Positions 1,401 through 48,382 of a stretch of DNA of 64,000 nt are shown here, in pieces. Each line of letters begins with the position of its first letter. The stretch's first letter is position 1. The notes below the pieces were generated by a model. The model had not been told where the DNA came from. It worked only from the letters and a program-made list of their open reading frames with translations, and did not search any database. The stretch is from Lepidurus packardi (lineage: Eukaryota; Arthropoda; Branchiopoda; Notostraca; Triopsidae), in NCBI GenBank assembly GCA_023053545.1, contig JAKZAN010000093.1, forward strand, positions 1-64,000, given 5' to 3'. Both the position numbers and the translations under genes were made by a program.

Positions 1401-1640
1401 ATTAATTCAGTCCGTACTTAATTAATTCAGTCCGTAAGGAATTAATTCAGTCCGTAAGAAATTAATTCAGTCCGTAAGGAATTCATTCAGTCCGTAAGGA
1501 ATTCATTCAGTCCGTAAGGAATTAATTCAGTCCGTAAGGAATTAATTCAGTCCGTAAGGAATTAATTCAGTCCGTAAGGAATTAATTCAGTCCGTAAGGA
1601 ATTAATTCAGTCCGTAAGGATTTAATTCATTCCGTAAGGT
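1401..1640 (+). repeat. 240-bp tandem duplication, copy 2
   Basis: Repeats 1,161-1,400 in order, with CCGTACTTAATT at 1,412. A CCGTCAGG unit in copy 1 (near 1,354) has no counterpart at the expected place here, so the copies have begun to diverge. Confidence 0.75.
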
Positions 1641-1719
1641 ATTAATTCAGTCCGTAAGGAATTATTTCAGTCCGTAAGGAATTAATTCAGTCCGTAAGGA
1701 ATTTATTCAGTCCGTAAGG
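1641..1719 (+). repeat. Linker units between duplicated blocks
   Basis: Four ordinary 20-bp units, including AATTATTTCAG and ATTTATTCAG variants, leading into the second copy of the 1.64-kb block. Confidence 0.7.
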
Positions 1720-2868
1720 AATTATTCAGTGAGAAAGGAATTCAGTCAATCTTAAAGAATTAATTCAGTCCGTAAGGAACTAATTCAGTCCGTAAGGAAT
1801 TAATTCAGTCCGTAAGGAATTAATTAAGTCCGTAAGGAATTAATTAAGTCCGTAAGGAATTAATTTAGTCCGTAAGGAATTATTTCAGTCCGTAATTAAT
1901 TAATTCATTCCTTACGGAATTAATTAGGTCCATAAGGAATTAATTTAGTCTGTAAGGATTTAATTAAGTAGGTAATGAATTAATTCAGTCCGTAAGGAAT
2001 AACTTCAGTACGTAAGGAAATAATTCAGTCCGTAATTTATTAATTCAGTACGTAAGGAATTAATTCAGTCCGTAAGGAATTAATTCAGTCCGTAAGGATT
2101 TAATTCAGTCCGTAAGGTATTAATTCAGTCCGTAAGGAATTAATTCAGTCCGTAAGGAATTAATTCAGCCTGTAAGGATTTGATTAAGTCCGTAAGGTAT
2201 TAATTCAGTCCGTAAGGAATTAATTCAGTCCGTAAGGAATTAATTCAGCCTGTAAGGATTTGATTAAGTCCGTAATGAATTAATTCAGTCCGTAAGGAAT
2301 TAATTCAGTCCGTAAGGTATTAATTCAGTCCGTAAGGAATTAATTCAGTCCGTAAGGAATTAATTCAGTCCGTAAGGAATTAATTCAGTCCGTAAGGAAT
2401 TAATTCTGTCCGTGAGGATGTAATTAAGTCCGTAAGGTATTAATTCATTCCGTAAGGAATTAATTCAGTCCGTAAGGAATTAATTCAGTCCGTAAGGAAT
2501 TAATTCAGTCCGTAAGAAATTAATTCAGTCCGTAAGGAATTCATTCAGTCCGTAAGGAATTCATTCAGTCCGTAAGGAATTCATTCAGTCCGTAAGGAAT
2601 TAATTCAGTCCGTAAGGAATTAATTCAGTCCGTAAGGAATTAATTCAGTCCGTAAGGAATTAATTCTGTCCGTGAGGATGTAATTCATTCCGTAAGGAAT
2701 TAATTCAGTCCGTAAGGAATTAATTCAGTCCGTAAGGAATTAATTCAGTCCGTAAGGATTTAATTCATTCCGTAATGAATTAATTCAGTCCGTAAGGAAT
2801 TAATTCAGTCCGTAAGGAATTAATTCAGTCCGTCAGGAATTAATTCAGTCCGTAAGGAATTAATTCAC
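1720..2868 (+). repeat. Block duplication, copy 2 (pairs with 81-1,150)
   Basis: Follows copy 1 variant by variant: 19-bp pair at 1,725, inverted half-unit at 1,910, AATAACTTCAGTACG near 2,000, CTGTCCGTGAGGATG units near 2,406 and 2,666, three AATTCATTCAG units at about 2,540-2,590, and CCGTCAGG at 2,830. It carries an extra four-unit insertion (about 2,189-2,268) that repeats GCCTGTAAGGATTTGATTAAG. A private AAGTAGGTAATG variant near 1,966 replaces AAGTCCGTAATG. Confidence 0.85.
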
Positions 2869-4200
2869 TCCGTAAGGAATTATTTCAGTCCGTAAGGAAT
2901 TAATTCAGTAAGAAAGGAATTATTTCAGTCCGTAAGGAATTAATTCAGTAAGAAAGGAATTCAATCAATCCTAAAGAATTAATTCAGTCCGTTAGGAAAT
3001 ATTTCAGTCCGTAAGGAATTAATTCAGTCCGTAAGGAATTAATTCAGTCCGTAAGGAATATGTTCAGTCCGTAAGGTATTAATTCATTCCGTAAGGAATT
3101 AATTCAGTCCGTAAGGAATTAATTCAGTCCGTAAGGAATTAATTCAGTCCGTAAGAAATTAATTCAGTCCGTAAGGAATTAATTCAGTCCGTAAGAAATT
3201 AATTCAGTCCGTAAGGAATTCATTCAGTCCGTAAGGAATTCATTCAGTCCGTAAGGAATTAATTCAGTCCGTAAGGAATTAATTCAGTCCGTAAGGAATT
3301 AATTCAGTCCGTAAGGATTTAATTCATTCCGTAAGGTATTAATTCAGTCCGTAAGGAATTAATTCAGTCCGTAAGGAATTAATTCAGTCCGTAAGGAATT
3401 AATTCAGTCCGTAAGGAATTAATTCTGTCCGTGAGGATGTAATTCAGTCCGTAAGGAATTAATTCAGTCCGTAAGGAATTAATTCAGTCCGTGAGGAATT
3501 AATTCAGTCCGTAAGGATTTAATTCATTCCGTAATGAATTAGTTCAGTCCGTAAGGAATTAATTCAGTCCGTAAGGAATTAATTCAGTCCGTCAGGAATT
3601 AATTCAGTCCGTAAGGAATTAATTCACTCCGTAAGGAATTATTTCAGTCCGTAAGGAATTAATTCAGTAAGAAAGGAATTCAATCAATCCTAAAGAATTA
3701 ATTCAGTCCGTTAGGAAATATTTCAGTCCGTAAGGAATTAATTCAGTCCGTAAGGAATTAATTCAGTCCGTAAGGAATTAATTCAGTCCGTAATGAATTA
3801 ATTCAGTCCGTAATGGATTAATTAAGTCCGTAATGAATTAATTCAGTCCGTATGAAATTAATTCAGTCCGTAAGGAATTCATTCAGTCCGTAAGGAATTC
3901 ATTCAGTCCGTAAGGAATTAATTCAGTCCGTAAGGAATTAATTCAGTCCGTAAGGAATTAATTCAGTCCGTAAGGATTTAATTCATTCCGTAAGGTATTA
4001 ATTCAGTCCGTAAGGAATTAATTCAGTCCGTAAGGAATTAATTCAGTCCGTAAGGAATTAATTCAGTCCGTAAGGAATTAATTCTGTCCGTGAGGATGTA
4101 ATTCAGTCCGTAAGGTATTAATTCAGTCCGTAAGGAATTAATTCACTCCGTAAGGAATTAATTCAGTCCGTAAGGAATTAATTCAGTCCGTAAGAAATTA
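2869..4200 (+). repeat. Mixed satellite segment with a repeated CAATCCTAAAG module
   Basis: Contains two copies of a module made of CAGTAAGAAAGG, the 19-bp unit AATTCAATCAATCCTAAAG and CCGTTAGGAAATATTTCAG, anchored at 2,948 and 3,667 (719 bp apart, or 36 units minus one base). The first copy has an extra CAGTAAGAAAGG unit 40 bp upstream (about 2,908). CTGTCCGTGAGGATG units occur near 3,426 and 4,085. The end of this segment (CCGTATGAAATT and two AATTCATTCAG units) is the lead-in shared with the 1,090-bp repeats that follow. Confidence 0.75.
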
Positions 4201-5290
4201 ATTCAGTCAGTAAGGAATTAATTCAGTCCGTATGAAATTAATTCAGTCCGTAAGGAATTCATTCAGTCCGTAAGGAATTCATTCAGTCCGTAAGGAATTA
4301 TTCAGTGAGAAAGGAATTCAATCAATCTTAAAGAATTAATTCAGTCCGTAAGGAACTAATTCAGTCCGTAAGGAATTAATTCAGTCCGTAAGGAATTAAT
4401 TAAGTCCGTAAGGAATTAATTAAGTCCGTAAGGAATTAATTCAGTCCGTAAGGATTTAATTCATTCCGTAAGGTATTAATTCAGTCCGTAAGGAATTAAT
4501 TCAGTCCGTAAGGAATTAATTCAGTCCGTAAGGAATTAATTCAGTCCGTAAGGAATTAATTCTTTCCGTGAGGATGTAATTCAGTCCGTAAGGTATTAAT
4601 TCAGTCCGTAAGGAATTAATTCAGTCCGTAAGGAATTAATTCAGTCCGTAAGGAATTATTTCAGTCCGTAATTAATTAATTCATTCCTTACGGAATTAAA
4701 TAAGTCCATAAGGAATTAATTCAGTCTGTAAGGATTTAATTAAGTCCGTAAGGAATTAATTAAGTCCGTAAGGAATTAATTCCGTCCGTAAGGAATTAAT
4801 TCAGTCCGTAAGGAATTAATTCAGTCAGTAAGGAATTAATTTAGTCCGTAAGGAATTAATTCAGTCCGTAAGGATTTAATTCAGTCCGTAAGGATTTAAT
4901 TCAGTCCGTAAGGTATTAATTCAGTCCGTAAGGAATTAATTCAGTCCGTAAGGAATTAATTCAGTCCGTAAGGATATAATTCAGTCCGTAATGAATTAAT
5001 TCAGTCCGTATGAAATTAACTCAGTCCGTAAGGAATTAATTAAGGAATTAATTCAGTCCGTAAGGAATTAATTCAATCCCTAATTAATTAATTCATTCCT
5101 TACGGAATTAATTAAGTCCATAAGGAATTAATTCAGTCTGTAAGGATTTGATTAAGTCCGTAATGAATTAATTCAGTCCGTAAGGAATTAATTCAGTCCG
5201 TAAGGAATTAATTTAGTCCGTAAGGAATTAATTCAGTCCGTAAGGAATTAATTAAGTCCGTAATGAAATAATTCAGTCCGTATGAAATTA
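4201..5290 (+). repeat. 1,090-bp higher-order repeat, copy 1 of 3
   Basis: Opens with CAGTCAGTAAGG and CCGTATGAAATT units, then the 19-bp pair (TTCAGTGAG at 4,301). It has a CTTTCCGTGAGGATG unit near 4,563, two inverted half-units (CCTTACGG at 4,686 and 5,098), a CCGTCCGTAAGG unit near 4,782 and the 12-bp unit AATTAATTAAGG at 5,034-5,045. Its length equals 52 units of 20 bp, two of 19 and one of 12 (55 units). I saw no differences from copy 2 by eye, so the amplification is recent. Confidence 0.93.
5034..5045 (+). repeat. 12-bp short unit, first of 22 in the forward arm
   Basis: AATTAATTAAGG is the consensus unit without its central CAGTCCGT. Starts: 5,034, 6,124, 7,214, 12,498, 22,812, 23,964, 24,456, 24,648, 25,140, 25,672, 26,284, 27,236, 28,126, 29,065, 29,836, 30,388, 31,360, 32,612, 33,524, 34,776, 36,625 and 38,837. 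Nearly all follow CCGTATGAAATTAACTCAG and precede an inverted half-unit by about 50 bp, so they derive from one deletion event. The reverse arm has equivalents in TTCCTCAATTCCTTAATT and TTTCTTAATTAATTCC contexts. Confidence 0.9.
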
Positions 5291-25200: not shown

Positions 25201-28140
25201 ATTCCTTACGGAATTAATTAAGTCCATAAGGAATTAATTCAGTCTGTAAGGATTTAATTAAGTCCGTAATGAATTAATTCAGACCGTAAGGAATTAATTC
25301 AGTCCGTAAGGAATTAATTCAGTCCGTAAGGAATTAATTCAGTCCGTAACGATTTAATTCAGTCCGTAAGGTATTAATTCAGCCCGTAAGGAATTAATTC
25401 AGTCCGTAAGGAACTAATTCAGTCCGTAAGGAATTAATTCAGTCCGTAAGGAATTAATTCTGTCCGTGAGGATGTAATTCAGTCCGTAAGGTATTAATTC
25501 AGTCCGTAAGGAATTAATTCAGTCCGTAAGGAATTAATTCAGTCCGTAAGGATATAATTCAGTCCGTAAGGAATAAGTTCAGTACGTAAGGAATTAATTC
25601 AGTCCGTAATCGATTAATTAAGTCCGTAATGAATTAATTCAGTCCGTATGAAATTAACTCAGTCCGTTAGGAATTAATTAAGGAATTAATTCAGTCCGTA
25701 AGGAATTAATTCAGTCCGTAATTAATTAATTCATTCCTTACGGAATTAATTAAGTCCATAAGGAATTAATTCAGTCTGTAAGGATTTAATTAAGTCCGTA
25801 ATGAATTAATTCAGTCCGTAATGAATTAATTCAGTCCGTAAGGATTTAATTCAGTCCGTAAGGTATTAATTCAGTCCGTAAGGAATTAATTCAGTCCGTA
25901 AGGAACTAATTCAGTCCGTAAGGAATTAATTCAGTCCGTAAGGAATTAATTCATTCCGTAAGGAATTAATTCTGTCCGTAAGGATGTAATTCAGTCCGTA
26001 AGGTATTAATTCAGTCCGTAAGGAATTAATTCAGTCCGTAAGGAATTAATTCAGCCCGTAAGGAATAAGTTCAGTCCGTAAGGATTTAATTCAGTCCGTA
26101 AGGTATTAATTCAGTCCGTAAGGAATTAATTCAGTCCGTAAGGAATTACTTCAGTCCGTAAGGATATAATTCAGTCCGTAAGGAATAAGTTCAGTACGTA
26201 AGGAATTAATTCAGTCCGTAATCGATTAATTAAGTCCGTAATGAATTAATTAAGTCCGTATGAAATTAACTCAGTCCGTAAGGAATTAATTAAGGAATTA
26301 ATTCAGTCCGTAAGGAATTAATTCAATCCGTAATTACTTAATTCATTCCTTACGGAATTAATTAAGTCCATAAGGAATTAATTTAGTCTGTAAGGATTTA
26401 ATTAAGTCCGTAATGAATTAATTCAGTCCGTAAGGAATAACTTCAGTACGTAAGGAATAACTTCAGTACGTAAGGAATAACTTCAGTACGTAAGGAAATA
26501 ATTCAGTCCAAAATTTATTAATTCAGTACGTAAGGAATTAATTCAGTCAGTAAGGAATTAATTCATTCCGTAAGGAACTAATTCAGTCCGTAAGGAATTA
26601 ATTCAGTCCGTAAGGATTTAATTCAGTCCGTAAGGTATTAATTCAGTCCGTAAGGAATTAATACAGTCCGTAAGGAATAAGTTCAGTACGTAAGGAATTA
26701 ATTCAGTCCGTATGAAATTAATTCAGTCCGTAAGGAATTAATTCAGTCCGTAAGGAATTAATTCAGTCCGTAAGGAATTATTTCAGTCCGTAATTAATTA
26801 ATTCATTCCTTACGGAATTAAATAAGTCCATAAGGAATTAATTCAGTCTGTAAGGATTTAATTAAGTCCGTAATGAATTAATTCAGTCCGTAAGGAATTA
26901 ATTAAGTCCGTAAGGAATTAATTCAATCCGTAAGGAATTAATTCAGTCCGTAAGGAATTAATTCAGTCAGTAAGGAATTATTTCAGTCCGTAAGGAATTA
27001 ATTCAGTCCGTAAGGAATTATTTCAGTCCGTAAGGATTTAATTCAGTCCGTAAGGTATTAATTCAGTCCGTAAGGAATTAATTCAGTCCGTAAGGAATTA
27101 ATTCAGTCCGTAAGGATATATTTCAGTCCGTAAGGAATAAGTTCAGTACGTAAGGAATTAATTCAGTCCGTAATCGATTAATTAAGTCCGTAATGAATTA
27201 ATTCAGTCCGTATGAAATTAACTCAGTCCGTAAGGAATTAATTAAGGAATTAATTCAGTCCGTAATTAATTAATTCAGTCCGTAATTAATTAATTCATTC
27301 CTTACGGAATTAATTAAGTCCATAAGGAATTAATTCTTTCTGTAAGGATTTAATTAAGTCCGTAATGAATTAATTCAGTCCGTAATGAATTAATTCAGTC
27401 CGTAAGGATTTAATTCAGTCCGTAAGGTATTAATTCAGTCCGTAAGGAATTAATTCAGTCCGTAATGAATTAATTCAGTCCGTAAGGAATTAATTCTGTC
27501 CGTAAGGATGTAATTCAGTCCGTGAGGTATTAATTCAGTCCGTAAGGAATTAATTCAGTCCGTAAGGAATTAATTCAGTCCGTAAGGAATTAATTCAGTC
27601 CGTAAGGAATAAGTTCAGTACGTAAGGAATTAATTCAGTCCGTAATGGATTAATTAAGTCCGTAATGAATTAATTCAGTCCGTATGAAATTAATTCAGTC
27701 CGTAAGGAATTCATTAGTCCGTAAGGAATTAATTCAGTAAGAAAGGAATTCAATCAATCCTAAAGAATTAATTCAGTCCGTAAGGAACTAATTCAGTCCG
27801 TAAGGAATTAATTCTGTCCGTAAGGATGTAATTCAGTCCGTAAGGTATTAATTCAGTCCGTAAGGAATTAATTCAGTCCGTAAGGAATTAATTCAGCCCG
27901 TAAGGAATAAGTTCAGTCCGTAAGGATTTAATTCAGTCCGTAAGGTATTAATTCAGTCCGTAAGGAATTAATTCAGTCCGTAAGGAATTACTTCAGTCCG
28001 TAAGGATATAATTCAGTCCGTTAGGAATAAGTTCAGTACGTAAGGAATTAATTCAGTCCGTAATCGATTAATTAAGTCCGTAATGAATTAATTCAGTCCG
28101 TATGAAATTAACTCAGTCCGTAAGGAATTAATTAAGGAAT
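22260..28140 (+). repeat. Irregular zone: many inverted half-units and 12-bp units
   Basis: After one last 19-bp pair (22,260) the long regular blocks stop. Short segments of 350-1,200 bp are shuffled, each typically ending in CCGTATGAAATTAACTCAG, the 12-bp unit AATTAATTAAGG, two ordinary units and an inverted half-unit. 12-bp units begin at 22,812, 23,964, 24,456, 24,648, 25,140, 25,672, 26,284, 27,236 and 28,126. Inverted half-units (CCTTACGG) begin at 22,444, 22,876, 23,116, 23,376, 23,656, 24,028, 24,712, 25,204, 25,736, 26,348, 26,808 and 27,300. AATAACTTCAGTACG is concentrated here (22.5, 23.0, 23.7 kb and three in a row near 26,440). Its complement is a hallmark of the reverse arm. Confidence 0.85.
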
Positions 28141-28680
28141 TAATTCAGTCCGTAATTAATTAATTCAGTCCGTAATTAATTCATTCATTCCTTACGGAAT
28201 TAATTCAGTCCGTAAGGAATTAATTCTGTCCGTAAGGAATTAATTCAGTCCGTAAGGAATTAATTCAGTCCGTAAGGAATTATTTCAGTCCGTAATTAAT
28301 TCATTCATTCCTTACGGAATTAATTAAGTCCATAAGGAATTAATTTAGTCTGTAAGGATTTAATTAAGTCCGTAATGAATTAATTCAGTCCGTAAGGAAT
28401 AACTTCAGTACGTAAGGAAATAATTCAGTAAGTAATGGATTAATAAAGTCCGTAATGAATTAATTCAGTCCGTAAGGAATTAATAAAATCCGTACGGAAT
28501 TAATAAAATCCGTACGGAATTAATTCAGTCCGAAAGGAATTAATTCAGTCCGTAATTAATAAGTTCAGTACGTAAGGAATTAATTCAGTCCGTATTGGAT
28601 TAATTAAGTCCGTAATTAATAAGTTCAGTACGTAAGGAATTAATTAAGTCCGTAATGGATTAATTAATTCCCTAAGTCCC
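28141..28680 (+). repeat. Most scrambled part of the forward arm
   Basis: Two inverted half-units (28,190 and 28,310) have the TTCATTCATTCC spelling, also found at the orientation switch. Units with AATAAAATCCGTACGG (about 28,482-28,518), CAGTAAGTAATGG, CCGAAAGG and CCGTATTGG follow, ending in TTCCCTAAGTCCCTAATG near 28,668. CCGTACGG is otherwise a reverse-arm variant (near 42,096, 42,886, 44,267 and others), so this is the forward-arm stretch most like the reverse arm. Confidence 0.8.
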
Positions 28681-29451
28681 TAATGAATTAATTCAGTCCG
28701 TATGAAATTAATTCAGTCCGTAAGGAATTCATTCAGTCCGTAAGGAATTCATTCAGTCCGTAAGGAATTCATTCAGTCCGTAAGGAATTAATTCAGCGAG
28801 AAAGGAATTCAATCAATCTTAAAGAATTAATTCAATCCGTAAGGAACTAATTCAGTCCGTAACGAATTAATTCAGTCCGTAAGGAAATAATTAAGTCCGT
28901 AAGGAATTAATTAAGTCCGTTAGGAATTAATTCAGTCCGTAAGGATATAATTCAGTCCGTAAGGAATAAGTTCAGTACGTAAGGAATTAATTCAGTCCGT
29001 AATCGATTAATTAAGTCCGTAATGAATTAATTCAGTCCGTATGAAATTAACTCAGTCCGTAAGGAATTAATTAAGGAATTAATTCAGTCCGTAAGGAATT
29101 AATTCAGTCCGTAAGGAATTAATTCAGTCCGTAATTAATTAATTCATTCCTTACGGAATTAATTAAGTCCATAAGGAATTAATTCAGTCTGTAAGGATTT
29201 AATTAAGTCCGTATTGAATTAATTCAGACCGTAAGGAATTAATTCAGTCCGTAAGGAATTAATTCAGTCCGTAAGGAATTAATTCAGGCCGAAAGGATTT
29301 AATTCAGTCCGTAAGGTATTAATTCAGTCCGTAAGGAATTAATTCAGTCCGTATGAAATTAATTCAGTCCGTAAGGAATTCATTCAGTCCGTAAGAAATT
29401 CATTCAGTCCGTAAGGATTTAATTCAGTCCGTAAGGTATTAATTCAGTCCG
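28681..29451 (+). repeat. 771-bp tandem duplication, copy 1
   Basis: 39 units minus nine bases: one 19-bp unit (CAATCAATCTTAAAG) and one 12-bp unit (29,065-29,076). It starts with a CAGCGAGAAAGG unit (28,794) that differs from the usual CAGTGAG. Inverted half-unit at 29,149. Private variants include CCGTTAGGAATT near 28,918 and CAGGCCGAAAGG near 29,285. Confidence 0.86.
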
Positions 29452-30125
29452 TAATGAATTAATTCAGTCCGTATGAAATTAATTCAGTCCGTAAGGAATT
29501 CATTCAGTCCGTAAGGAATTCATTCAGTCCGTAAGGAATTCATTCAGTCCGTAAGGAATTAATTCAGCGAGAAAGGAATTCAATCAATCTTAAAGAATTA
29601 ATTCAATCCGTAAGGAACTAATTCAGTCCGTAACGAATTAATTCAGTCCGTAAGGAAATAATTAAGTCCGTAAGGAATTAATTAAGTCCGTAAGGAATTA
29701 ATTCAGTCCGTAAGGATATAATTCAGTCCGGAAGGAATAAGTTCAGTACGTAATGAATTAATTCAGTCCGTAATCGATTAATTAAGTCCGTAATGAATTA
29801 ATTCAGTCCGTATGAAATTAACTCAGTCCGTAAGGAATTAATTAAGGAATTAATTCAGTCCGTAAGGAATTAATTCAGTCCGTAAGGAATTAATTCAGTC
29901 CGTAATTAATTAATTCATTCCTTACGGAATTAATTAAGTCCATAAGGAATTAATTCAGTCTGTAAGGATTTAATTAAGTCCGTAATGAATTAATTCAGAC
30001 CGTAAGGAATTAATTCAGTCCGTAAGGAATTAATTCAGTCCGTAAGGAATTAATTCAGTCCGTAAGGATTTAATTCAGTCCGTAAGGTATTAATTCAGTC
30101 CGTAAGGAATTAATTCAGTCCGTAA
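29452..30125 (+). repeat. 771-bp tandem duplication, copy 2
   Basis: Landmarks lie 771 bp after copy 1 (CAGCGAG at 29,565, 12-bp unit at 29,836, inverted half-unit at 29,920). The two copies diverge at about 30,112-30,125. A private CCGGAAGG unit lies near 29,728. Confidence 0.86.
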
Positions 30126-30960
30126 GGAACTAATTCAGTCCGTAAGGAATTAATTCAATCCGTAAGGAATTAATTCTGTCCGTGAGGATGTAATTCAGTC
30201 CGTAAGGTATTAATTCAGTCCGTAAGGAATTAATTCAGTCCGTAAGGAATTAATTCAGTCCGTAAGGATATAATTCAGTCCGTAAGGAATAAGTTCAGTA
30301 CGTAAGGAATTAATTCAGTCCGTAATCGATTAATTAAGTCCGTAATGAATTAATTCAGTCCGTATGAAATTAACTCAGTCCGTAAGGAATTAATTAAGGA
30401 ATTAATTCAGTCCGTAAGGAATTAATTCAGTCCGTAATTAATTAATTCATTCCTTACGGAATTAATTAAGTCCATAAGGAATTAATTCAGTCTGTAAGGA
30501 TTTAATTAAGTCCGTAATGAATTAATTCAGTCCGTAATGAATTAATTCAGTCCGTAAGGATTTAATTCAGTCCGTAAGGTATTAATTCAGTCCGTAAGGA
30601 ATTAATTAAGTCCGTAATGAAATAATTCAGTCCGTATGAAATTAATTCAGTCCGTAAGGAATTAATTCAGTCCGTAAGGAATTAATTCAGTCCGTAAGGA
30701 ATTAATTCAGTCCGTAAGGAATTAATTCAGTCCGTAAGGAATTAATTCAGTCCGTAAGGATTTTATTCATTCCGTAAGGTATTAATTCAGTCCGTAAGGA
30801 ATTCATTCAGTCCGTATAGAATTAATTCAGTCCGTAAGGAATTAATTCAGTCCGTAAGGAATTAATTCTGTCCGTGAGGATGTAATTCAGTCCGTAAGGT
30901 ATTAATTCATTCCGTAAGGAATTAATTCAGTCCGTAAGGAATTAATTCAGTCCGTAAGGA
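30126..30960 (+). repeat. Mixed satellite segment
   Basis: Contains a CTGTCCGTGAGGATG unit near 30,176, the 12-bp unit at 30,388-30,399, an inverted half-unit at 30,452, then GATTTTATTC and CCGTATAG units near 30,760-30,830. The junction of the two styles near 30,600 looks like a recombination point between the 25-kb type and the 7.5-kb type of sequence. Confidence 0.72.
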
Positions 30961-33124
30961 ATTAATTCAGTCCGTAAGAAATTAATTCAGTCCGTAAGGA
31001 ATTCATTCAGTCCGTAAGGAATTCATTCAGTCCGTAAGGAATTAATTCAGTCCGTAAGGAATTAATTCAGTCCGTAAGGAATTAATTCAGTCCGTAAGGA
31101 TTTAATTCATTCCGTAAGGAATTAATTCAGTCCGTAAGGAATTAATTCAGTCAGTAAGGAATTAATTTAGTCCGTAAGGAATTAATTCAGTCCGTAAGGA
31201 TTTAATTCAGTCCGTAAGGATTTAATTCAGTCCGTAAGGTATTAATTCAGTCCGTAAGGAATTAATTCAGTCCGTAAGGAATTAATTCAGTCCGTAAGGA
31301 TATAATTCAGTCCGTAATGAATTAATTCAGTCCGTATGAAATTAACTCAGTCCGTAAGGAATTAATTAAGGAATTAATTCAGTCCGTAATTAATTAATTC
31401 AATCCGTAATTAATTAATTCATTCCTTACGGAATTAATTAAGTCCATAAGGAATTAATTCAGTCTGTAAGGATTTGATTAAGTCCGTAATGAATTAATTC
31501 AGTCCGTAAGGAATTAATTCAGTCCGTAAGGAATTAATTTAGTCCGTAAGGAATTAATTCAGTCCGTAAGGAATTAATTAAGTCCGTAATGAAATAATTC
31601 AGTCCGTATGAAATTAATTCAGTCCGTAAGGAATTCATTCAGTCCGTAAGGAATTAATTCAGTCCGTAAGGAATTAATTCAGTCCGTAAGGAATTAATTC
31701 AGTCCGTAAGGAATTAGTTCAGTCCGTAAGGATTTTATTCATTCCGTAAGGTATTAATTCAGTCCGTAAGGAATTAATTCAGTCCGTATAGAATTAATTC
31801 AGTCCGTAAGGAATTAATTCAGTCCGTAAGGAATTAATTCTGTCCGTGAGGATGTAATTCAGTCCGTAAGGTATTAATTCATTCCGTAAGGAATTAATTC
31901 AGTCCGTAAGGAATTAATTCAGTCCGTAAGGAATTAATTCAGTCCGTAAGTAATTAATTCAGTCCGTAAGGAATTCATTCAGTCCGTAAGGAATTCATTC
32001 AGTCCGTAAGGAATTAATTCAGTCCGTAAGGAATTAATTCAGTCCGTAAGGAATTAATTCAGTCCGTAAGGATTTAATTCATTCCGTAAGGTATTAATTC
32101 AGTCCGTAAGGAATTAATTCAGTCCGTAAGGAATTAATTCAGTCCGTAAGGAATTAATTCAGTCCGTAAGGAATTAATTCTGTCCGTGAGGATGTAATTC
32201 AGTCCGTAAGGAATTAATTCAGTCCGTAAGGAATTATTTCAGTCCGTAATTAATTAATTCATTCCTTACGGAATTAAATAAGTCCATAAAGAATTAATTC
32301 AGTCTGTAAGGATTTAATTAAGTCCGTAAGGAATTAATTAAGTCCGTAAGGAATTAATTCAGTCCGTAAGGAATTAATTCAGTCCGTAAGGAATTAATTC
32401 AGTCAGTAAGGAATTAATTTAGTCCGTAAGGAATTAATTCAGTCCGTAAGGATTTAATTCAGTCCGTAAGGATTTAATTCAGTCCGTAAGGTATTAATTC
32501 AGTCCGTAAGGAATTAATTCAGTCCGTAAGGAATTAATTCAGTCCGTAAGGATATAATTCAGTCCGTAATGAATTAATTCAGTCCGTATGAAATTAACTC
32601 AGTCCGTAAGGAATTAATTAAGGAATTAATTCAGTCCGTAAGGAATTAATTCAATCCGTAATTAATTAATTAATTCCTTACGGAAGTAATTAAGTCCATA
32701 AGGAATTAATTCAGTCTGTAAGGAATTAATTCTGTCCGTGAGGATGTAATTCAGTCCGTAAGGAATTAATTCAGTCCGTAAGGAATTATTTCAGTCCGTA
32801 ATTAATTAATTCATTCCTTACGGAATTAAATAAGTCCATAAAGAATTAATTCAGTCTGTAAGGATTTAATTAAGTCCGTAATGAATTAATTCAGTCCGTA
32901 AGGCATTAATTCAGTCCGTAAGGAATTAATTTAGTCCGTAAGGAATTAATTCAGTCCGTAAGGAATTAATTAAGTCCGTAATGAATTAATTCAGTCCGTA
33001 TGAAATTAATTCAGTCCGTAAGGAATTCATTCAGTCCGTAAGGAATTAATTCAGTCCGTAAGGAATTAATTCAGTCCGTAAGGAATTAATTCAGTCCGTA
33101 AGGAATTAATTCAGTCCGTAAGGA
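30961..33124 (+). repeat. 2,164-bp higher-order repeat, copy 1 of 2
   Basis: 109 units minus sixteen bases, explained by two 12-bp units (31,360 and 32,612). Inverted half-units at 31,424, 32,264, 32,676 and 32,816. The one at 32,676 has the spelling TTAATTCCTTACGGAAGTAATT, shared only with its partner at 34,840. All landmarks recur exactly 2,164 bp later. Confidence 0.91.
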
Positions 33125-37720: not shown

Positions 37721-38060
37721 AATTCTGTCCGTGAGGATGTAATTCAGTCCGTAAGGTATTAATTCATTCCGTAAGGAATTAATTCAGTCCGTAAGGAATT
37801 AATTCAGTCCGTAAGGAATTACTTCAGTCCGTAAGAAATTAATTCAGTCCGTAAGGAATTCATTCAGTCCGTAAGGAATTAATTCAGTCCGTAAGGAATT
37901 AATTCAGTCCGTAAGGAATTAATTCAGTCCGTAAGGAATTAATTCAGTCCGTAAGGATTTTATTCATTCCGTAAGGTATTAATTCAGTCCGTAAGGAATT
38001 AATTCAGTCCGTATAGAATTAATTCAGTCCGTAAGGAATTAATTCAGTCCGTAAGGAATT
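37721..38060 (+). repeat. 340-bp extended version of the 260-bp repeat
   Basis: Same unit order as the 260-bp repeat plus four units, including CCGTAAGAAATT and AATTCATTCAG (about 37,820-37,870). CCGTATAG at 38,010. Confidence 0.85.
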
Positions 38061-38400
38061 AATTCTGTCCGTGAGGATGTAATTCAGTCCGTAAGGTATT
38101 AATTCATTCCGTAAGGAATTAATTCAGTCCGTAAGGAATTAATTCAGTCCGTAAGGAATTAATTCAGTCCGTAAGAAATTAATTCAGTCCGTAAGGAATT
38201 CATTCAGTCCGTAAGGAATTCATTCAGTCCGTAAGGAATTCATTCAGTCCGTAAGGAATTAATTCAGTCCGTAAGGAATTAATTCAGTCCGTAAGGATTT
38301 AATTCATTCCGTAAGGTATTAATTCAGTCCGTAAGGAATTAATTCAGTCCGTAAGGAATTAATTCAGTCCGTAAGGAATTAATTCAGTCCGTAAGGAATT
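38061..38400 (+). repeat. Second 340-bp interval, diverged
   Basis: Again 340 bp between CTGTCCGTGAGGATG units. It has three AATTCATTCAG units and GATTTAATTCATTCCG in place of GATTTTATTC, and no CCGTATAG. Confidence 0.75.
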
Positions 38401-41110
38401 AATTCTGTCCGTGAGGATGTAATTCAGTCCGTAAGGAATTAATTCAGTCCGTAAGGAATTATTTCAGTCCGTAATTAATTAATTCATTCCTTACGGAATT
38501 AAATAAGTCCATAAAGAATTATGTCAGTCTGTAAGGATTTAATTAAGTCCGTAAGGAATTAATTAAGTCCGTAAGGAATTAATTCAGTCCGTAAGGAATT
38601 AATTCAGTCCGTAAGGAATTAATTCAGTCAGTAAGGAATTAATTTAGTCCGTAAGGAATTAATTCAGTCCGTAAGGATTTAATTCAGTCCGTAAGGATTT
38701 AATTCAGTCCGTAAGGTATTAATTCAGTCCGTAAGGAATTAATTCAGTCCGTAAGGAATTAATTCAGTCCGTAAGGATATAATTCAGTCCGTAATGAATT
38801 AATTCAGTCCGTATGAAATTAACTCAGTCCGTAAGGAATTAATTAAGGAATTAATTCAGTCCGTAAGGAATTAATTCAATCCGTAATTAATTAATTCATT
38901 CCTTACGGAATTAATTAAGTCCATAAGGAATTAATTCAGTCTGTAAGGATTTGATTAAGTCCGTAATGAATTAATTCAGTCCGTAAGGAATTAGTTCAGT
39001 CCGTAAGGAATTAATTTAGTCCGTAAGTAATTAATTCAGTCCGTAAGGAATTAATTAAGTCCGTAATGAATTAATTCAGTCCGTATGAAATTAATTCAGT
39101 CCGTAAGGAATTCATTCAGTCCGTAAGGAATTAATTCAGTCCGTAAGGAATTAATTCAGTCCGTAAGGAATTAATTCAGTCCGTAAGGATTTTATTCATT
39201 CCGTAAGGTATTAATTCAGTCCCTAAGGAATTAATTCAGTCCGTAAGGAATTAATTCAGTCCGTAAGGAATTAATTCAGTCCGTAAGGAATTAATTCTGT
39301 CCGTGAGGATGTAATTCAGTCCGTAAGGTATTAATTCATTCCGTAAGGAATTAATTCAGTCCGTAAGGAATTAATTCAGTCCGTAAGAAATTAATTCAGT
39401 CCGTAAGGAATTCATTCAGTCCGTAAGGAATTCATTCAGTCCGTAAGGAATTAATTCAGTAAGAAAGGAATTCAATCAATCCTAAAGAATTAATTCAGTC
39501 CGTAATGAATTAATTCAGTCCGTAAGGAATTAATTCAGTCCGTAAGAAATTAATTCAGTCAGTAAGGAATTAATTCAGTCCGTATGAAATTAATTCAGTC
39601 CGTAAGGAATTCATTCAGTCCGTAAGGAATTCATTCAGTCCGTAAGGAATTATTCAGTGAGAAAGGAATTCAATCAATCTTAAAGAATTAATTCAGTCCG
39701 TAAGGAACTAATTCAGTCCGTAAGGAATTAATTCAGTCCGTAATTAATTAATTAAGTCCGTAAGGAATTAATTAAGTCCGTAAGGAATTAATTCAGTCCG
39801 TAAGGATTTAATTCATTCCGTAAGGTATTAATTCAGTCCGCAAGAAATTAATTCAGTCCGTAAGGAATTAATTCAGTCCGTAAGGAATTAATTCAGTCCG
39901 TAAGGAATTAATTCTTTCCGTGAGGATGTAATTCAGTCCGTAAGGTATTAATTCAGTCCGTAAGGAATTAATTCAGTCCGTAAGGAATTAATTCAGTCCG
40001 TAAGGAATTATTTCAGTCCGTAATTAATTAATTCATTCCTTACGGAATTAAATAAGTCTATAAGGAATTAATTCAGTCTGTAAGGATTTAATTAAGTCCG
40101 TAAGGAATTAATTAAGTCCGTAAGGAATTAATTCAGTCCGTAAGGAATTAATTCAGTCCGTAAGGAATTAATTCAGTCAGTAAGGAATTAATTTAGTCCG
40201 TAAGGAATTAATTCAGTCCGTAAGGATTTAATTCAGTCCGTAAGGATTTAATTCAGTCCGTAAGGTATTAATTCAGTCCGTAAGGAATTAATTCAGTCCG
40301 TAAGGAATTAATTCAGTCCGTATGAAATTAATTCAGTCCGTAAGGAATTCATTCAGTCCGTAAGGAATTAATTCAGTCCGTAAGGAATTAATTCAGTCCG
40401 TAAGGAATTAATTCAGTCCGTAAGGAATTAATTCAGTCCGTAAGGATTTTATTCATTCCGTAAGGTATTAATTCAGTCCCTAAGGAATTAATTCAGTCCG
40501 TAAGGAATTAATTCAGTCCGTAAGGAATTAATTCAGTCCGTAAGGAATTAATTCTGTCCGTGAGGATGTAATTCAGTCCGTAAGGTATTAATTCATTCCG
40601 TAAGGAATTAATTCAGTCCGTAAGGAATTAATTCAGTCCGTAAGGAATTAATTCAGTCCGTAAGAAATTGATTCAGTCCGTAAGGAATTCATTCAGTCCG
40701 TAAGGAATTCATTCAGTCCGTAAGGAATTAATTCAGTAAGAAAGGAATTCAATCAATCCTAAAGAATTAATTCAGTCCGTTAGGAAATATTTCAGTCCGT
40801 AAGGAATTAATTCAGTCCGTAAGGAATTAATTCAGTCCGTAAGGAATAAGTTCAGTCCGTAAAGAATTAATTCAGTCCGTAAGAAATTAATTCAGTCAGT
40901 AAGGAATTAATTCAGTCCGTATGAAATTAATTCAGTCCGTAAGGAATTCATTCAGTCCGTAAGGAATTCATTCAGTCCGTAAGGAATTATTCAGTGAGAA
41001 AGGAATTCAATCAATCTTAAAGAATTAATTCAGTCCGTAAGGAACTAATTCAGTCCGTAAGGAATTAATTCAGTCCGTAAGGAATTAATTAAGTCCGTAA
41101 GGAATTATTC
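38401..41110 (+). repeat. Last forward-arm segment before the switch
   Basis: Similar in order to 32,170-33,120 and 34,330-36,540: half-units at 38,489, 38,901 and 40,038, the 12-bp unit at 38,837-38,848, 19-bp pairs at 39,653 and 40,990, and CAGTCCCTAAGG variants near 39,219 and 40,477. Private variants include AATTATGTCAG (about 38,517), CCGTAATTAATTAATTAAG (about 39,738) and CCGCAAGAAATT (about 39,838). The 19-bp pair at 40,990 is only about 120 bp from the switch. Confidence 0.78.
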
Positions 41111-41166
41111 CAGTCCGTAATTAATTCATTCATTCCTTACGGACTTAATTAATAAATTACGGACTG
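41111..41166. other. Orientation switch (inversion junction) of the satellite
   Basis: The last forward unit is 41,103-41,122 (AATTATTCCAGTCCGTAATT). Next is the hybrid unit AATTCATTCATTCCTTACGG at 41,123-41,142, forward in its first half and reversed in its second. The first full reverse unit is CCTTACGGACTTAATTAATA at 41,135-41,154. CAGTCCGTAATT (41,111-41,122) and AATTACGGACTG (41,155-41,166) are perfect 12-bp inverted arms around a 32-bp spacer. The left flank matches hybrid units found elsewhere (28,190, 28,310 and, inverted, 42,965 and others). The right flank matches ordinary reverse-arm sequence near 43,322, 47,140 and 52,017. The two source sequences share ATTCCTTACGGA (41,132-41,143), which is the likely breakpoint homology. 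An assembly chimera is possible but would need to fall exactly on this homology. Confidence 0.9.
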
Positions 41167-43640
41167 AATTATTTCCTTACGTACTGAAGTTATTCCTTAC
41201 TGACTGAATTAATTCTTTACGGACTGAATTAATTCCTTACGGACTGAATTAATTCCTTACGGACTGAATTAATTCCTCAATTCCTTAATTAATTCCTTAC
41301 GGACTGAATTAATTTCATCCGGACTGAATTAAATTCATCCGGACTGAATTAATTCATTACGCACTTAATTAATCCATTACGGACTGAATTATTTCCTTAC
41401 GTATTGAAGTTATTCCTTACGGACTGAATTAATTCCTTACGGACTGAATTAATTCCTTACGGACTTAATTAATCCATTACGGACTGAATTATTTACTTAC
41501 GTACTGAAGTTATTCCTTACGGACTGAATTACTTCCTTACCGACTGAATTAATTAATTACAGACTTAAATAAATCCTTACAGACTGAATGAATTCCTTAT
41601 GGACTGAATTAATTCCTTACGGACTTAATTAATCGTTTACGGACTGAATTAATTCCTTACGGACTGAATTAATTCCTTACTGACTGAATTAATTCCTTAC
41701 GGACTGAATTAATTCCTTACGGACTGAATTAATTCCTTACGGACTGAATTAATTCCTCAATTCCTTAATTAATTCCTTACGGACTGAATTAATATCATCC
41801 GGACTGAATTAATTCATTACGCACTTAATTAATCCATTACGGACTGAATTAATACCTTACGGACTGAATTAAATCCTTTCGGACTGAATTAATTCCTTAC
41901 GGACTTAATTAATTCCTTACGGACTGAATTAATTCATTACGGACTGAATTAATTCCTTACGGACTGAATTAATTCCTTACGGAACTAATTAATTCCTTAC
42001 GGACGGAATTAATTCTTTACGGACTTAATTAATTCCTTACGAACTTAATTAATTCCTTACGTACTTAATTAATTCCTTACGGTCTGAATTAATTCCGTAC
42101 GGATTTAATTAATTCCTTACGGACTGAATTAATTCCTTACGGACTGAATTAATTCATTACGGACTGAATTTATTCCTTACGGACTGAACTATTTCCTTAC
42201 GGACTGAATTAATTCTTTAGGATTGATTGAATTCCTTTCTTACTGAAAAAATTCCTTACGGACTGAATTAATTTCTTAATTAATTCCTTACGGACTGAAT
42301 TAATTTCATACGGACTGAATTAATTCATTACGGACTGTATTAATCCATTACGGACTGAATTAATTCCTTACGGGATTAATTAATTCCTTACGTACTGAAT
42401 TAATTCCTTACGGACTGAATTAATTCCTTACGGACTGAATTAGTTCCTTACGGACGGAATTAATTCTTTAGGATTGATTGAATTCCTTTCTTACTGAATT
42501 AATTCCTTACGGATTGAATTAATTTCATACGGACTGAATTAATACCTTACGGACTGAATTAATTTCATCCGGACTGAATTAATTCATTAAGCACTTAATT
42601 AATCCATTACGGACTGAATTATTTCCTTACGTATTGAAGTTATTCTTTACGGACTGAATTAATACCTTACGGACTGAATTAAATCCTTACGGACTGAATT
42701 AATTCCTTACGGACTTAATTAATTCCTTACTGTCTGAATTAATTCATTACGGACTGAATTAATTCCCTACGGACTGAATTAATTCCTTACTGACCTAATT
42801 AATTACTTACGGACGGAATTAATTCCTTACGAACTTAATTAATTCCTTACGTACTTAATTAATTCCTTACGGTCTGAATTAATTCCGTACGGATTTAATT
42901 AATTCCTTACTGACTGAATTAATTCCTTACGGACTGAATTAATTCATTATGGACTTAATTAATTCCGTAAGGAATGAATGAATTAATTACGGACTGGAAT
43001 AATTCCTTACGGACTAAATTAATTCCTTACGAACTGAATTAATTCCTAACGGACTGAATTAATTCCTTACATACTGAATTAATTCCTTAATTAATTCCTT
43101 ACGGACTGAATTAATTCCTTACGGACTGAATTACTTCCTTACGGACTGAATTAATTCCTCAATTCCTTAATTAATTCCTTACGGACTGAATTAATTTCAT
43201 CCGGACTGAATTAATTCATTACGCACTTAATTAATCCATTACGGACTGAATTATTTCCTTACGTATTGAAGTTATTCCTTACGGACTGAATTAATTCCTT
43301 ACGGACTGAATTAATTCCTTACGGACTTAATTAATAAATTACGGACTGAATTATTTCCTTACGTACTGAAGTTATTCCTTACGTATTGAAGTTATTCCTT
43401 ACGGACTGAATTAATTCCTTACGGACTGAATTAATTCCTTACGGACTGAATTAATACCCTACGGACATAATTAATTCCTTACGGACTGATTTAAATCCAT
43501 ACGGACTTAGTTAATTCCTTCCGAATTTAATTAATTTCTTACGGACTGAATCAATTCATTACAGACTTAATTTATCCATTACGGACTTAATTAATTCATT
43601 ACGGACTTAATTAATTCCTTACGGACTGAACTAATTCCTT
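41143..43640 (-). repeat. First reverse-arm segment
   Basis: Contains CGTACTGAAGTTATT units (41,179 and 41,499), TTCCTCAATTCCTTAATT short-unit contexts (near 41,273, 41,753 and 43,156), CCGTACGG units (42,096 and 42,886), 19-bp units (TTCTTTAGGATTGATTG at 42,213 and 42,464) and the inverted half-unit module CCGTAAGGAATGAATG at 42,965. From about 41,750 its landmarks recur 8,693 bp downstream in the second long block. It is therefore a relative of the end of that block, not a unique boundary sequence. Confidence 0.83.
42965..42998 (-). repeat. Inverted half-unit module of the reverse arm, first of 7
   Basis: CCGTAAGGAATGAATG followed by AATTAATTACGGACTGG. It is the reverse complement of the module at the orientation switch, including the rare ATTCCAG spelling. 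Sites: CCGTAAGG at 42,965, 46,777, 51,658, 56,299, 57,269 and 61,220, and the mutated CCGTAACG at 62,702. All share one sequence, unlike the several spellings in the forward arm. Confidence 0.88.
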
Positions 43641-46600: not shown

Positions 46601-48382
46601 ACTGACCTAATTAATTACTTACGGACGGAATTAATTCCTTACGAACTTAATTAATTCCTTACGTACTTAATTAATTCCTTACGGTCTGAATTAATTCCGT
46701 ACGGATTTAATTAATTCCTTACTGACTGAATTAATTCCTTACGGACTGAATTAATTCATTATGGACTTAATTAATTCCGTAAGGAATGAATGAATTAATT
46801 ACGGACTGGAATAATTCCTTACGGACTAAATTAATTCCTTACGAACTGAATTAATTCCTAACGGACTGAATTAATTCCTTACGGACTGAATTAATTCCTT
46901 AATTAATTCCTTACGGACTGAATTAATTCCTTACGGACTGAATTACTTCCTTACGGACTGAATTAATTCCTCAATTCCTTAATTAATTCCTTACGGACTG
47001 AATTAATTTCATCCGGACTGAATTAATTCATTACGCACTTAATTAATCCATTACGGACTGAATTATTTCCTTACGTATTGAAGTTATTCCTTACGGACTG
47101 AATTAATTCCTTACGGACTGAATTAATTCCTTACGGACTTAATTAATAAATTACGGACTGAATTATTTCCTTACGTACTGAAGTTATTCCTTACGTATTG
47201 AAGTTATTCCTTACGGACTGAATTAATTCCTTACGGACTGAATTAATTCCTTACGGACTGAATTAATACCCTACGGACATAATTAATTCCTTACGGACTG
47301 ATTTAAATCCATACGGACTTAGTTAATTCCTTCCGAATTTAATTAATTTCTTACGGACTGAATCAATTCATTACAGACTTAATTTATCCATTACGGACTT
47401 AATTAATTCATTACGGACTTAATTAATTCCTTACGGACTGAACTAATTCCTTACGGACTGATTTAATTCCTTACGGAATGAATTATTTTCTTACGGACTG
47501 AATTAATTCTTTAGGATTGATTGAATTCCTTTCTTACTGAATTAATTCATTACAGACTTAATTAATCCATTACGGACTGAATTAATTCCTTACGGACTGA
47601 ATTAATTCCTTACGGAAGGAATTATTTCCTTACGGACTGAATTAATTCTTTAGGATTGATTGAATTCCTTTCTAACTGAAAAAAATCCTTACGGACTGAA
47701 TTAATTCCTTAATTAATTCCTTACGGACTGAATTAATTTCATACGGACTGAATTAATTCATTACGGACTTAATTAATCGATTACAGACTGAATTAATTCC
47801 TTACGTACCTAACTTATTCCTTACGGACTGAATTAATTCCTTACGGACTGAATTAACTCCTTACGGACTGAATTAATTCCTTACGGACTGAATTAATACC
47901 TTACGGACTGAATTAATTCCTTACGGACTGAATTAATTCCTTACTGACTGAATTAATTCCTTACGGACTGAATTAATTCCTTTCGGACTGAATTAATTCC
48001 TTACGGACTGAATTAATTCCTTACGGACTTAATTAATTCCTTACGTACTTAATTAATTCCTTACGGTCTGAATTAATTCCGTACGGATTTTATTAATTCC
48101 TTACGGACTGAATTAATTCCTTACGAACTGAATTATTTCCTTACGGACTGAATTAATTCCTTACGGACTGAATTATATCCTTACGGACTGAATTACTTCC
48201 TTACGGACTGAATTAATTAATTACAGACTTAATTAAATCCTTACAGACTGAATGAATTCCTTATGGACTGAATTAATTCCTTACGGACTTAATTAATCGT
48301 TTACGGACTGAATTAATTCCTTACGGACTGAATTAATTCCTTACTGACTGAATTAATTCCTTACGGACTGAATTAATTCCTT
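43641..48382 (-). repeat. About 4.74-kb higher-order repeat, copy A
   Basis: CTTTAGG anchors (19-bp unit) at 43,697, 43,836, 44,927, 46,166, 47,509 and 47,648. The first four recur exactly 4,742 bp later. From about 46,391 the offset becomes 4,881 because copy A lacks 139 bp (seven units, one of them 19 bp) present in copy B. It includes an inverted half-unit module at 46,777. AACTGAAAAAAATCC near 47,684 is a one-base variant of the usual AACTGAAAAAATTCC. Confidence 0.88.

Follow-up and report, generated by a model that had tools for sequence, protein, structure and literature searches.

Template switching and macro-dyad satellites are both already known kinds of event. In the macro-dyad arrays described in Tribolium madens, long satellite arrays reverse their orientation, two satellites derive from one ancestral unit, inverted subunits lie inside repeats and inversion sites recur, the inversion-site units being strongly conserved, with 2,044 copies at 98.9% and 3,486 copies at 98.2% (PMC13081366); array symmetry is proposed there to matter for centromeric chromatin. 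The centromeric arrays of pea chromosome 6, as described, each keep to one orientation, except that one of them contains an inverted portion (PMC10027222). As to mechanism, the MMBIR model invokes multiple template switches, primed by homologies of 2 to 5 bp near repeats, that yield inverted segments (PMC2621351), and short-range template switching in great apes, recognized from hominid genome alignments, is reported to use a nearby template transiently and to leave a short patch (PMC7954356). In the open-licence literature we found no satellite turn-around whose donors had been mapped to the base and in which inverted monomers served as stepping stones; for the unit sequence itself, a single paper came up, on simple repeats in cabbage.

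In this report, we analyze such a turn-around in a satellite contig of Lepidurus packardi, designated C82. It shares with the T. madens arrays the long orientation-reversing arrays, the pair of related satellites, the inverted subunits and the recurrence of inversion sites, but differs from that description in its 20-bp unit, in switch sequences that vary from place to place, and in a C82 junction that is unique and resolves into donor tracts (PMC13081366). As in a macro-dyad, halves of the same satellite, here the 20-bp unit, are opposed in C82, though they belong to different subfamilies; no conserved, recurring inversion-site sequence was found, since the junction word is unique and only a few switches are shared, pairwise, between contigs. 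The event that we propose would resemble MMBIR, as modelled, in switching templates more than once, with short homologies near repeats as primers, and in its inverted segment, but the C82 homologies are of 12 and 16 bp, the setting is satellite DNA and there is no sequenced parent chromosome (PMC2621351). It would likewise share with the great-ape events a nearby template, used transiently, and a short patch, and another contig (C158) holds the copy-back-and-return form; the events described in apes are transient, however, whereas C82 never returns and its whole downstream array is reversed (PMC7954356). The pea arrays are alike in their uniform orientation and inverted portion; as far as that account goes, breakpoints are not analyzed there, as they are here (PMC10027222).

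The window, that is, the whole stretch of DNA that was analyzed, comprises the first 64,000 bases of C82 (121,894 bp), in an assembly of 108.6 Mb and 344 contigs. C82 is composed nearly entirely of a 20-bp satellite with the unit AATTAATTCAGTCCGTAAGG, as defined by TRF. An earlier note on this DNA had claimed that units are forward to the left of about 41.1 kb and reversed to the right, and this was borne out: a two-orientation Viterbi decoding gave forward for 1-41,132 and reverse for 41,133-64,000, and orientation anchors (12-mers with at most 3 mismatches) agree, with 2,002 forward against 57 reverse anchors left of 41,123, and 30 forward against 1,061 reverse anchors right of it. Inspected by eye, 55 of the 57 reverse anchors in the left arm resemble embedded inverted units, hereafter called hybrids, while the 30 forward anchors on the right comprise 7 hybrid-like ones, 22 of the near-palindromic variant CCGTACGG and the junction itself. 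By hand count, the unit agrees in register with its own reverse complement at 14 of 20 positions. The orientation switch in the C82 sequence is confirmed as real. The right arm stays reversed to the contig end at 121,894, except for seven AT-rich inserts of 75 to 83 bp. These lie at C82:94,518-115,685, are nearly identical and each follow an identical 30-bp flank; five of them reach 83 bp through one extra 8-bp unit.

Although the same unit builds both arms, they represent different subfamilies, the left family and the right family. Left-arm-only 30-mers stop by about 41,100, and right-arm-only 30-mers start at the switch, a few of them just before it; within the left arm, right-only 30-mers number 4 in 38,001-41,000 and 105 in 28,001-32,000. 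The boundary is therefore not the turn-around of one homogeneous array. The features of the window are as follows.

1-41,107, + strand: left-family satellite array, unit AATTAATTCAGTCCGTAAGG (TRF, Viterbi, left-only 30-mers)
28,167-28,198, + strand: left-arm hybrid, an exact match to 41,112-41,143 (32 bp)
28,287-28,318, + strand: second left-arm hybrid, an exact match to 41,112-41,143 (32 bp)
40,880-41,107, + strand: left parent tract, the same sequence as C105:98,873-99,100 (reverse complement) for 228 bp or more
41,092-41,107, + strand: first junction homology, 16 bp, AGTCCGTAAGGAATTA, common to the left parent and the hybrid patch
41,092-41,143, + strand: hybrid patch, a right-family unit with an embedded inverted monomer (52-bp exact word)
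41,108-41,131, + strand: 24-bp core, TTCCAGTCCGTAATTAATTCATTC, explained only by an inverted right-family hybrid
41,132-41,143, + strand: second junction homology, 12 bp, ATTCCTTACGGA, common to the hybrid patch and the right array
41,132-64,000, - strand: right-family satellite array, continuing to C82:121,894 (Viterbi)
42,964-43,015, - strand: closest of the exact 52-bp hybrid copies, 1.8 kb away from the switch and a candidate template for the patch
43,314-43,379, - strand: ordinary right-arm copy of the right flank, exact over at least 66 bp

Our main finding is that the junction consists of three parts, a left-family forward array, a 52-bp right-family hybrid and a right-family reverse array. 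The three tracts, their exact matches and the words that they share are plain in the sequence. Besides the match to C105, C82:40,942-41,107 is identical to C66, in a match ending at C66:152,766; the left bounds of both matches were set by the extent of sequence compared, so that their lengths are minima. After the equivalent of 41,107, both C105 and C66 carry ordinary forward units, without the hybrid. The hybrid patch itself is in forward orientation, that is, inverted relative to the right arm that it joins, and its core shrinks to 21 bp if one C4 source, matching from 41,129, is admitted. Both joins thus share short words, of 16 bp and 12 bp, as looked for in a template switch, and the core has the form of a templated insert: it is part of the 52 bp that match, without a difference, a copy on the opposite strand at a distance of 1.8 kb.

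The earlier note had seen two sources here, a left flank running to 41,143 and equal to a hybrid module found elsewhere, and a right flank starting at 41,132. Much of this stands. The 32 bp of 41,112-41,143 have exact copies, on the + strand of the window, at 28,167 and 28,287 only; the two sources do overlap in the 12 bp of ATTCCTTACGGA at 41,132-41,143; and the right flank is ordinary reverse-arm sequence, with further exact copies of at least 66 bp at 47,126, 52,007, 61,569 and 63,051, although the coordinates first listed lay 8 to 14 bp off and the fifth copy (63,051) had been missed. The inverted part of the hybrid is also, as claimed, homologous to the opposite-strand array in a way unlikely to arise by chance. 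The two-source reading, in contrast, gives way to three parts, because the C105 and C66 matches stop at 41,107 without a hybrid, and because the hybrid is right-family and forward. A copying-model parse, run without C66 and without the C105:98.9-kb stretch in the donor pool, was near-tied: at three switch costs, the right-family patch and the left-arm hybrid scored 13 v 14, 16 v 17 and 22 v 22, so that the patch is ahead by one mismatch at two costs and tied at the third. What decides for the three-part parse is that the exact left matches end at 41,107. A 42-bp word spanning the junction occurs exactly only once in the whole genome; the seven other matches listed carry 2 mismatches.

An exact whole-genome pattern search located the 52-bp hybrid word in 18 places, namely the junction and 17 other copies: six in the C82 right arm (- strand), six in C30, three in C35, and one each in C105 and C4. 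Sixteen of the 17 were classified, all of them right-family and all in array sense; around the ten classified copies outside C82, 93 to 161 of 290 flanking 30-mers are right-arm-only and 0 to 4 left-arm-only. The 17th, at C30:339,953, is unscored and runs off a stretch that is itself right-family. For comparison, 400-bp windows of left-family stretches in C147 and C57 hold mostly left-only words, with one of the 16 (in C57) showing the opposite, 0 v 61. No copy found in this exact search proved to be left-family. Likewise, ATTATTCCAGTCCGTAATTAATTCATTCATTCC occurs 0 times in the left arm of C82 and six times in its right arm, and the TTCC that precedes the hybrid is absent from the C82 left arm. 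Sequence comparison does not single out the donor of the patch among the 17 copies, and the identity of the template is not proved.

The inverted monomer is complete in seven copies in C77 (ATTCCTTACGGACTTAATTAA, then forward again). The 'inverted half' of the earlier note is thus, in C77, a whole inverted monomer, from which the C82 hybrids differ by one substitution, GGAATT for GGACTT. The word TTCATTCCTTACGGAATTAA occurs 45 times in the left and 46 times in the right arm of C82, the GGACTT form in neither, and a shorter word common to the hybrid forms 51 and 46 times, respectively. An overlap of 21 to 24 bp via C77-type hybrids was considered and dropped: C77 has a mismatch at 41,110, whereas the 52-bp right-family hybrid has none.

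A 12-bp overlap at C82 by chance is unlikely, though not negligible. Overlaps of at least 12 bp arose in 308 of 400,000 random forward/reverse joins of one source pair, in 0.5 to 1.9% of joins when the best donor was taken for each C82 arm (20,000 draws per setting), and in 21 of 3,000 with a wider donor pool. The frequency was 3.65% in 1,150 draws of forward-to-reverse joins filtered by the switch-search pattern, and 5.7% in 1,126 draws of the matched reverse-to-forward null. A fold-back palindrome at the C82 switch was rejected: the inverted arms are only 22 bp long, against a null median of 27 for the same arms, and 74% of 600 null joins of the C82 arms reached that length.

Other orientation switches were sought by exact-pattern searches and in sampled stretches (about 250 kb of satellite decoded), and most were found by patterns. 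Viterbi decoding gave 23 switches, 17 of which were scored after removal of three in C40 (the same as in C36), one in C242 (the same as in C30) and, in C36, both ends of a flip of 15 bp for which there is no 24-bp source; further switches, detected later in C48, C211 and C221 (two ends) and as second copies in C35 and C54, were left unscored. The parents overlap on the same strand by at least 12 bp at 8 of the 17 (3 of 10 forward-to-reverse, 5 of 7 reverse-to-forward), a count in which the paired ends of one inverted island are not independent and for which the donor pool includes fragments chosen for holding hybrids, as does that of the matched null. The eight are C82, both ends in C158, two in C45, C47, one end in C310, and C30/C242. 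At the remaining nine, among them C105, C50, C4 and C36, the overlap is 0 to 11 bp, and its value of zero at C4 and C36 may only reflect parent arrays outside the sample. As far as seen, the switches at C50, C105/C35, C4, C48, C211 and C221 are not at inverted units (C48, C211 and C221 judged by eye). From the 8/17, set against nulls of 3.65% and 5.7%, and from the switches without inverted units, it follows that hybrids favour switches but are not required. The expectation that other switches would coincide with inverted units was therefore right in part, failing, for instance, at C50, C105/C35, C4 and C48.

Switches are common to the contig pairs C105/C35, C30/C242 and C36/C40, and one island occurs twice in C54; recurring across contigs, they cannot all be assembly errors. 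Around the same switch, but in opposite orientation, C30:626 kb and C242:42.6 kb are 98.6% identical, and C36:363 kb and C40:173 kb are 97.8% identical; either pair may represent uncollapsed haplotypes or duplications. The 15-bp forward flip in the reverse array, at C36:363,615-363,629, for which the pool holds no 24-bp source, is also present in C40. Matches to the whole junction query at 82 to 85% identity yielded no switches: Viterbi decoding gave one orientation in 10-kb stretches of C69, C57, C147, C36, C90, C30, C238, C85 and C110, some early matches lying outside these stretches. In C47, an open frame of 961 aa (- strand, 1416-4301 of the sampled stretch) lies inside the satellite and adjoins a short inverted island; we take it to resemble a non-LTR retrotransposon ORF2. 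Elsewhere in the assembly, COX1 matches that are open in the standard code occur in C52, C214 and C43 (perhaps bacterial), and the many with internal TGA in the large contigs C1, C2, C4 and C6 are probably nuclear mitochondrial copies. Under the invertebrate mitochondrial code, one COX1 fragment is interrupted by stops and can be read only in part.

In C158, at 40,873-41,250, an array in reverse orientation leads into a hybrid; next, after a 10-bp spacer, comes the satellite just passed, inverted and without a difference over 184 bp, and the array then resumes in the hybrid, in the manner of ten other hybrid copies (10 kb examined). The process is displayed plainly at this second locus, the perfect inverted duplication being apparently a fresh copy-back template-switch event. 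Among eight short inverted islands, the best inverted match lies in the local flank (at most 1.5 kb searched on each side) for five (C158, one in C45, C221, C310 and C47), is tied with another contig for two (both C54 copies), and lies elsewhere for one, the second C45 island.

A second encounter of the two subfamilies is found in C105, where, at 69,722, a right-family array running forward gives way to a left-family one running in reverse. Viewed from the opposite strand, the subfamilies are arranged as in C82, head-to-head at another breakpoint. C35 carries the same switch: a 60-bp word shows one difference there, the subfamilies stand in the same relation, and the flanks are only 88.8% identical. 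Compared with the close similarity of C82 and C105, these flanks make the C105/C35 switch apparently older than that of C82, unless it was spread by conversion. From 764 bp beyond its switch, C105 is 98.9% identical to C82:41,133-43,153; from 2,726 bp beyond it, C105 is 99.0% identical to C82:41,192-43,455; and the first 188 bp of the right arm find their best C105 fit still further in, at about 4.85 kb from the switch (converted coordinate). On the opposite side of the C105 switch, at a distance of 29.2 kb, is the exact left tract, C105:98,873-99,100. Matches at 764 bp to about 4.85 kb on one side and 29.2 kb on the other point to a loss of about 30 kb from a C105-like parent, so that the C82 event probably replaced a C105/C35-like switch. 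The earlier note had the hybrid cause the array to turn; the switch is indeed within the hybrid but, since these two subfamilies also meet head-to-head at a different breakpoint in C105 and C35, it is more likely that the hybrid moved an existing boundary. The homology searches scored 11 of 2,363 candidates in one case and 18 of 2,051 in the other.

We consider that the C82 switch is the scar of microhomology-guided template switching, in a single event that relocated the turn-around, and put the probability of this reading at about 55%. In the left-family forward array, a strand that was growing or had been resected would have paused after the 16 bp of AGTCCGTAAGGAATTA and annealed to the same word in an opposite-strand right-family hybrid, the nearest copy being 1.8 kb away in the right arm. 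It would then have copied the next 24 bp of the hybrid, reached the embedded inverted monomer, annealed through the 12 bp of ATTCCTTACGGA to a normal right-arm monomer, and continued along the right arm. The product would be a forward array, a short inverted patch and a reverse array, and a C105/C35-like switch would have been replaced through the loss of about 30 kb, shifting the turn-around. Several observations tell against parts of this. The 16- and 12-bp homologies exceed the 2 to 5 bp given for the MMBIR model (PMC2621351), a longer forward segment of the right family could have left the patch as its remnant, and the copying model prefers a right-family patch by only one mismatch, with a tie at one cost. 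As to relocation, the link to C105 is not exclusive: left of the switch, the flank over 900 bp is 96% identical to C105 and 97% to C66, and windows at 36-39 kb of the left arm are closer to C57 (94.3 to 97.2%) than to C105:70-75 kb (92%); right of it, the first kb does favour C105, being only 90.3% identical within C82's own right arm, but the second kb is 99.6% identical there. The C105/C35 switch, moreover, could be shared by conversion and need not be older.

The remnant just mentioned leads to a history in two steps, which we hold to be rather unlikely. Here, the right family would have folded back at its own hybrid, as observed in C158, and a later unequal exchange between forward arrays would have replaced its forward side by the left-family array, sparing only the last few dozen bases. 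The patch is right-family and forward, as this requires, and the 16-bp homology at its left edge would be ordinary in-register homology between forward units; the exchange must, however, fall by chance within about 40 bp of the switch, and the final 3 kb of the left arm contain few right-only 30-mers (4), though 28,001-32,000 has 105. A single recombination event, through strand exchange, end joining or single-strand annealing, between a left-array unit with an inverted half and an opposite-strand right array sharing 12 to 21 bp of direct homology, in line with the earlier note, is favoured by the 12-bp overlap with the left-arm hybrids at 28,167 and 28,287, or of 21 bp with C77 hybrids. We nevertheless judge it quite improbable: no hybrid follows 41,107 in either C105 or C66, which match the left flank exactly, the TTCC before the hybrid is missing from the left arm, and the 52-bp hybrid is in right-family arrays in 16 of 16 classified copies.

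It is very unlikely, in our estimation, that the junction is an artefact of assembly or library, be it a chimeric read, a template switch during PCR amplification of the library or a mis-join in the assembly graph. The 42-bp junction word is unique to C82 and repeats are the usual site of mis-joins, but the arms belong to different subfamilies, which is not what a fold-back read artefact would give, and other switches recur (C105/C35, C30/C242, C36/C40, C54 twice), so that orientation switches do exist in the genome, although neither argument vouches for the junction of C82 itself.

Beyond C82, template switching suggests, tentatively and with somewhat less assurance than for the junction, that the single inverted monomers scattered through these arrays serve as stepping stones, and that orientation boundaries are repeatedly created, moved and erased. 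If this is true, large head-to-head satellite blocks would be a by-product of replication errors, and no selection for dyad symmetry would be needed. The base-level donor tracts of C82, together with C158 and with the enrichment of switches at places where inverted monomers supply homology on the same strand, make such a neutral, mechanistic origin testable in long-read assemblies.
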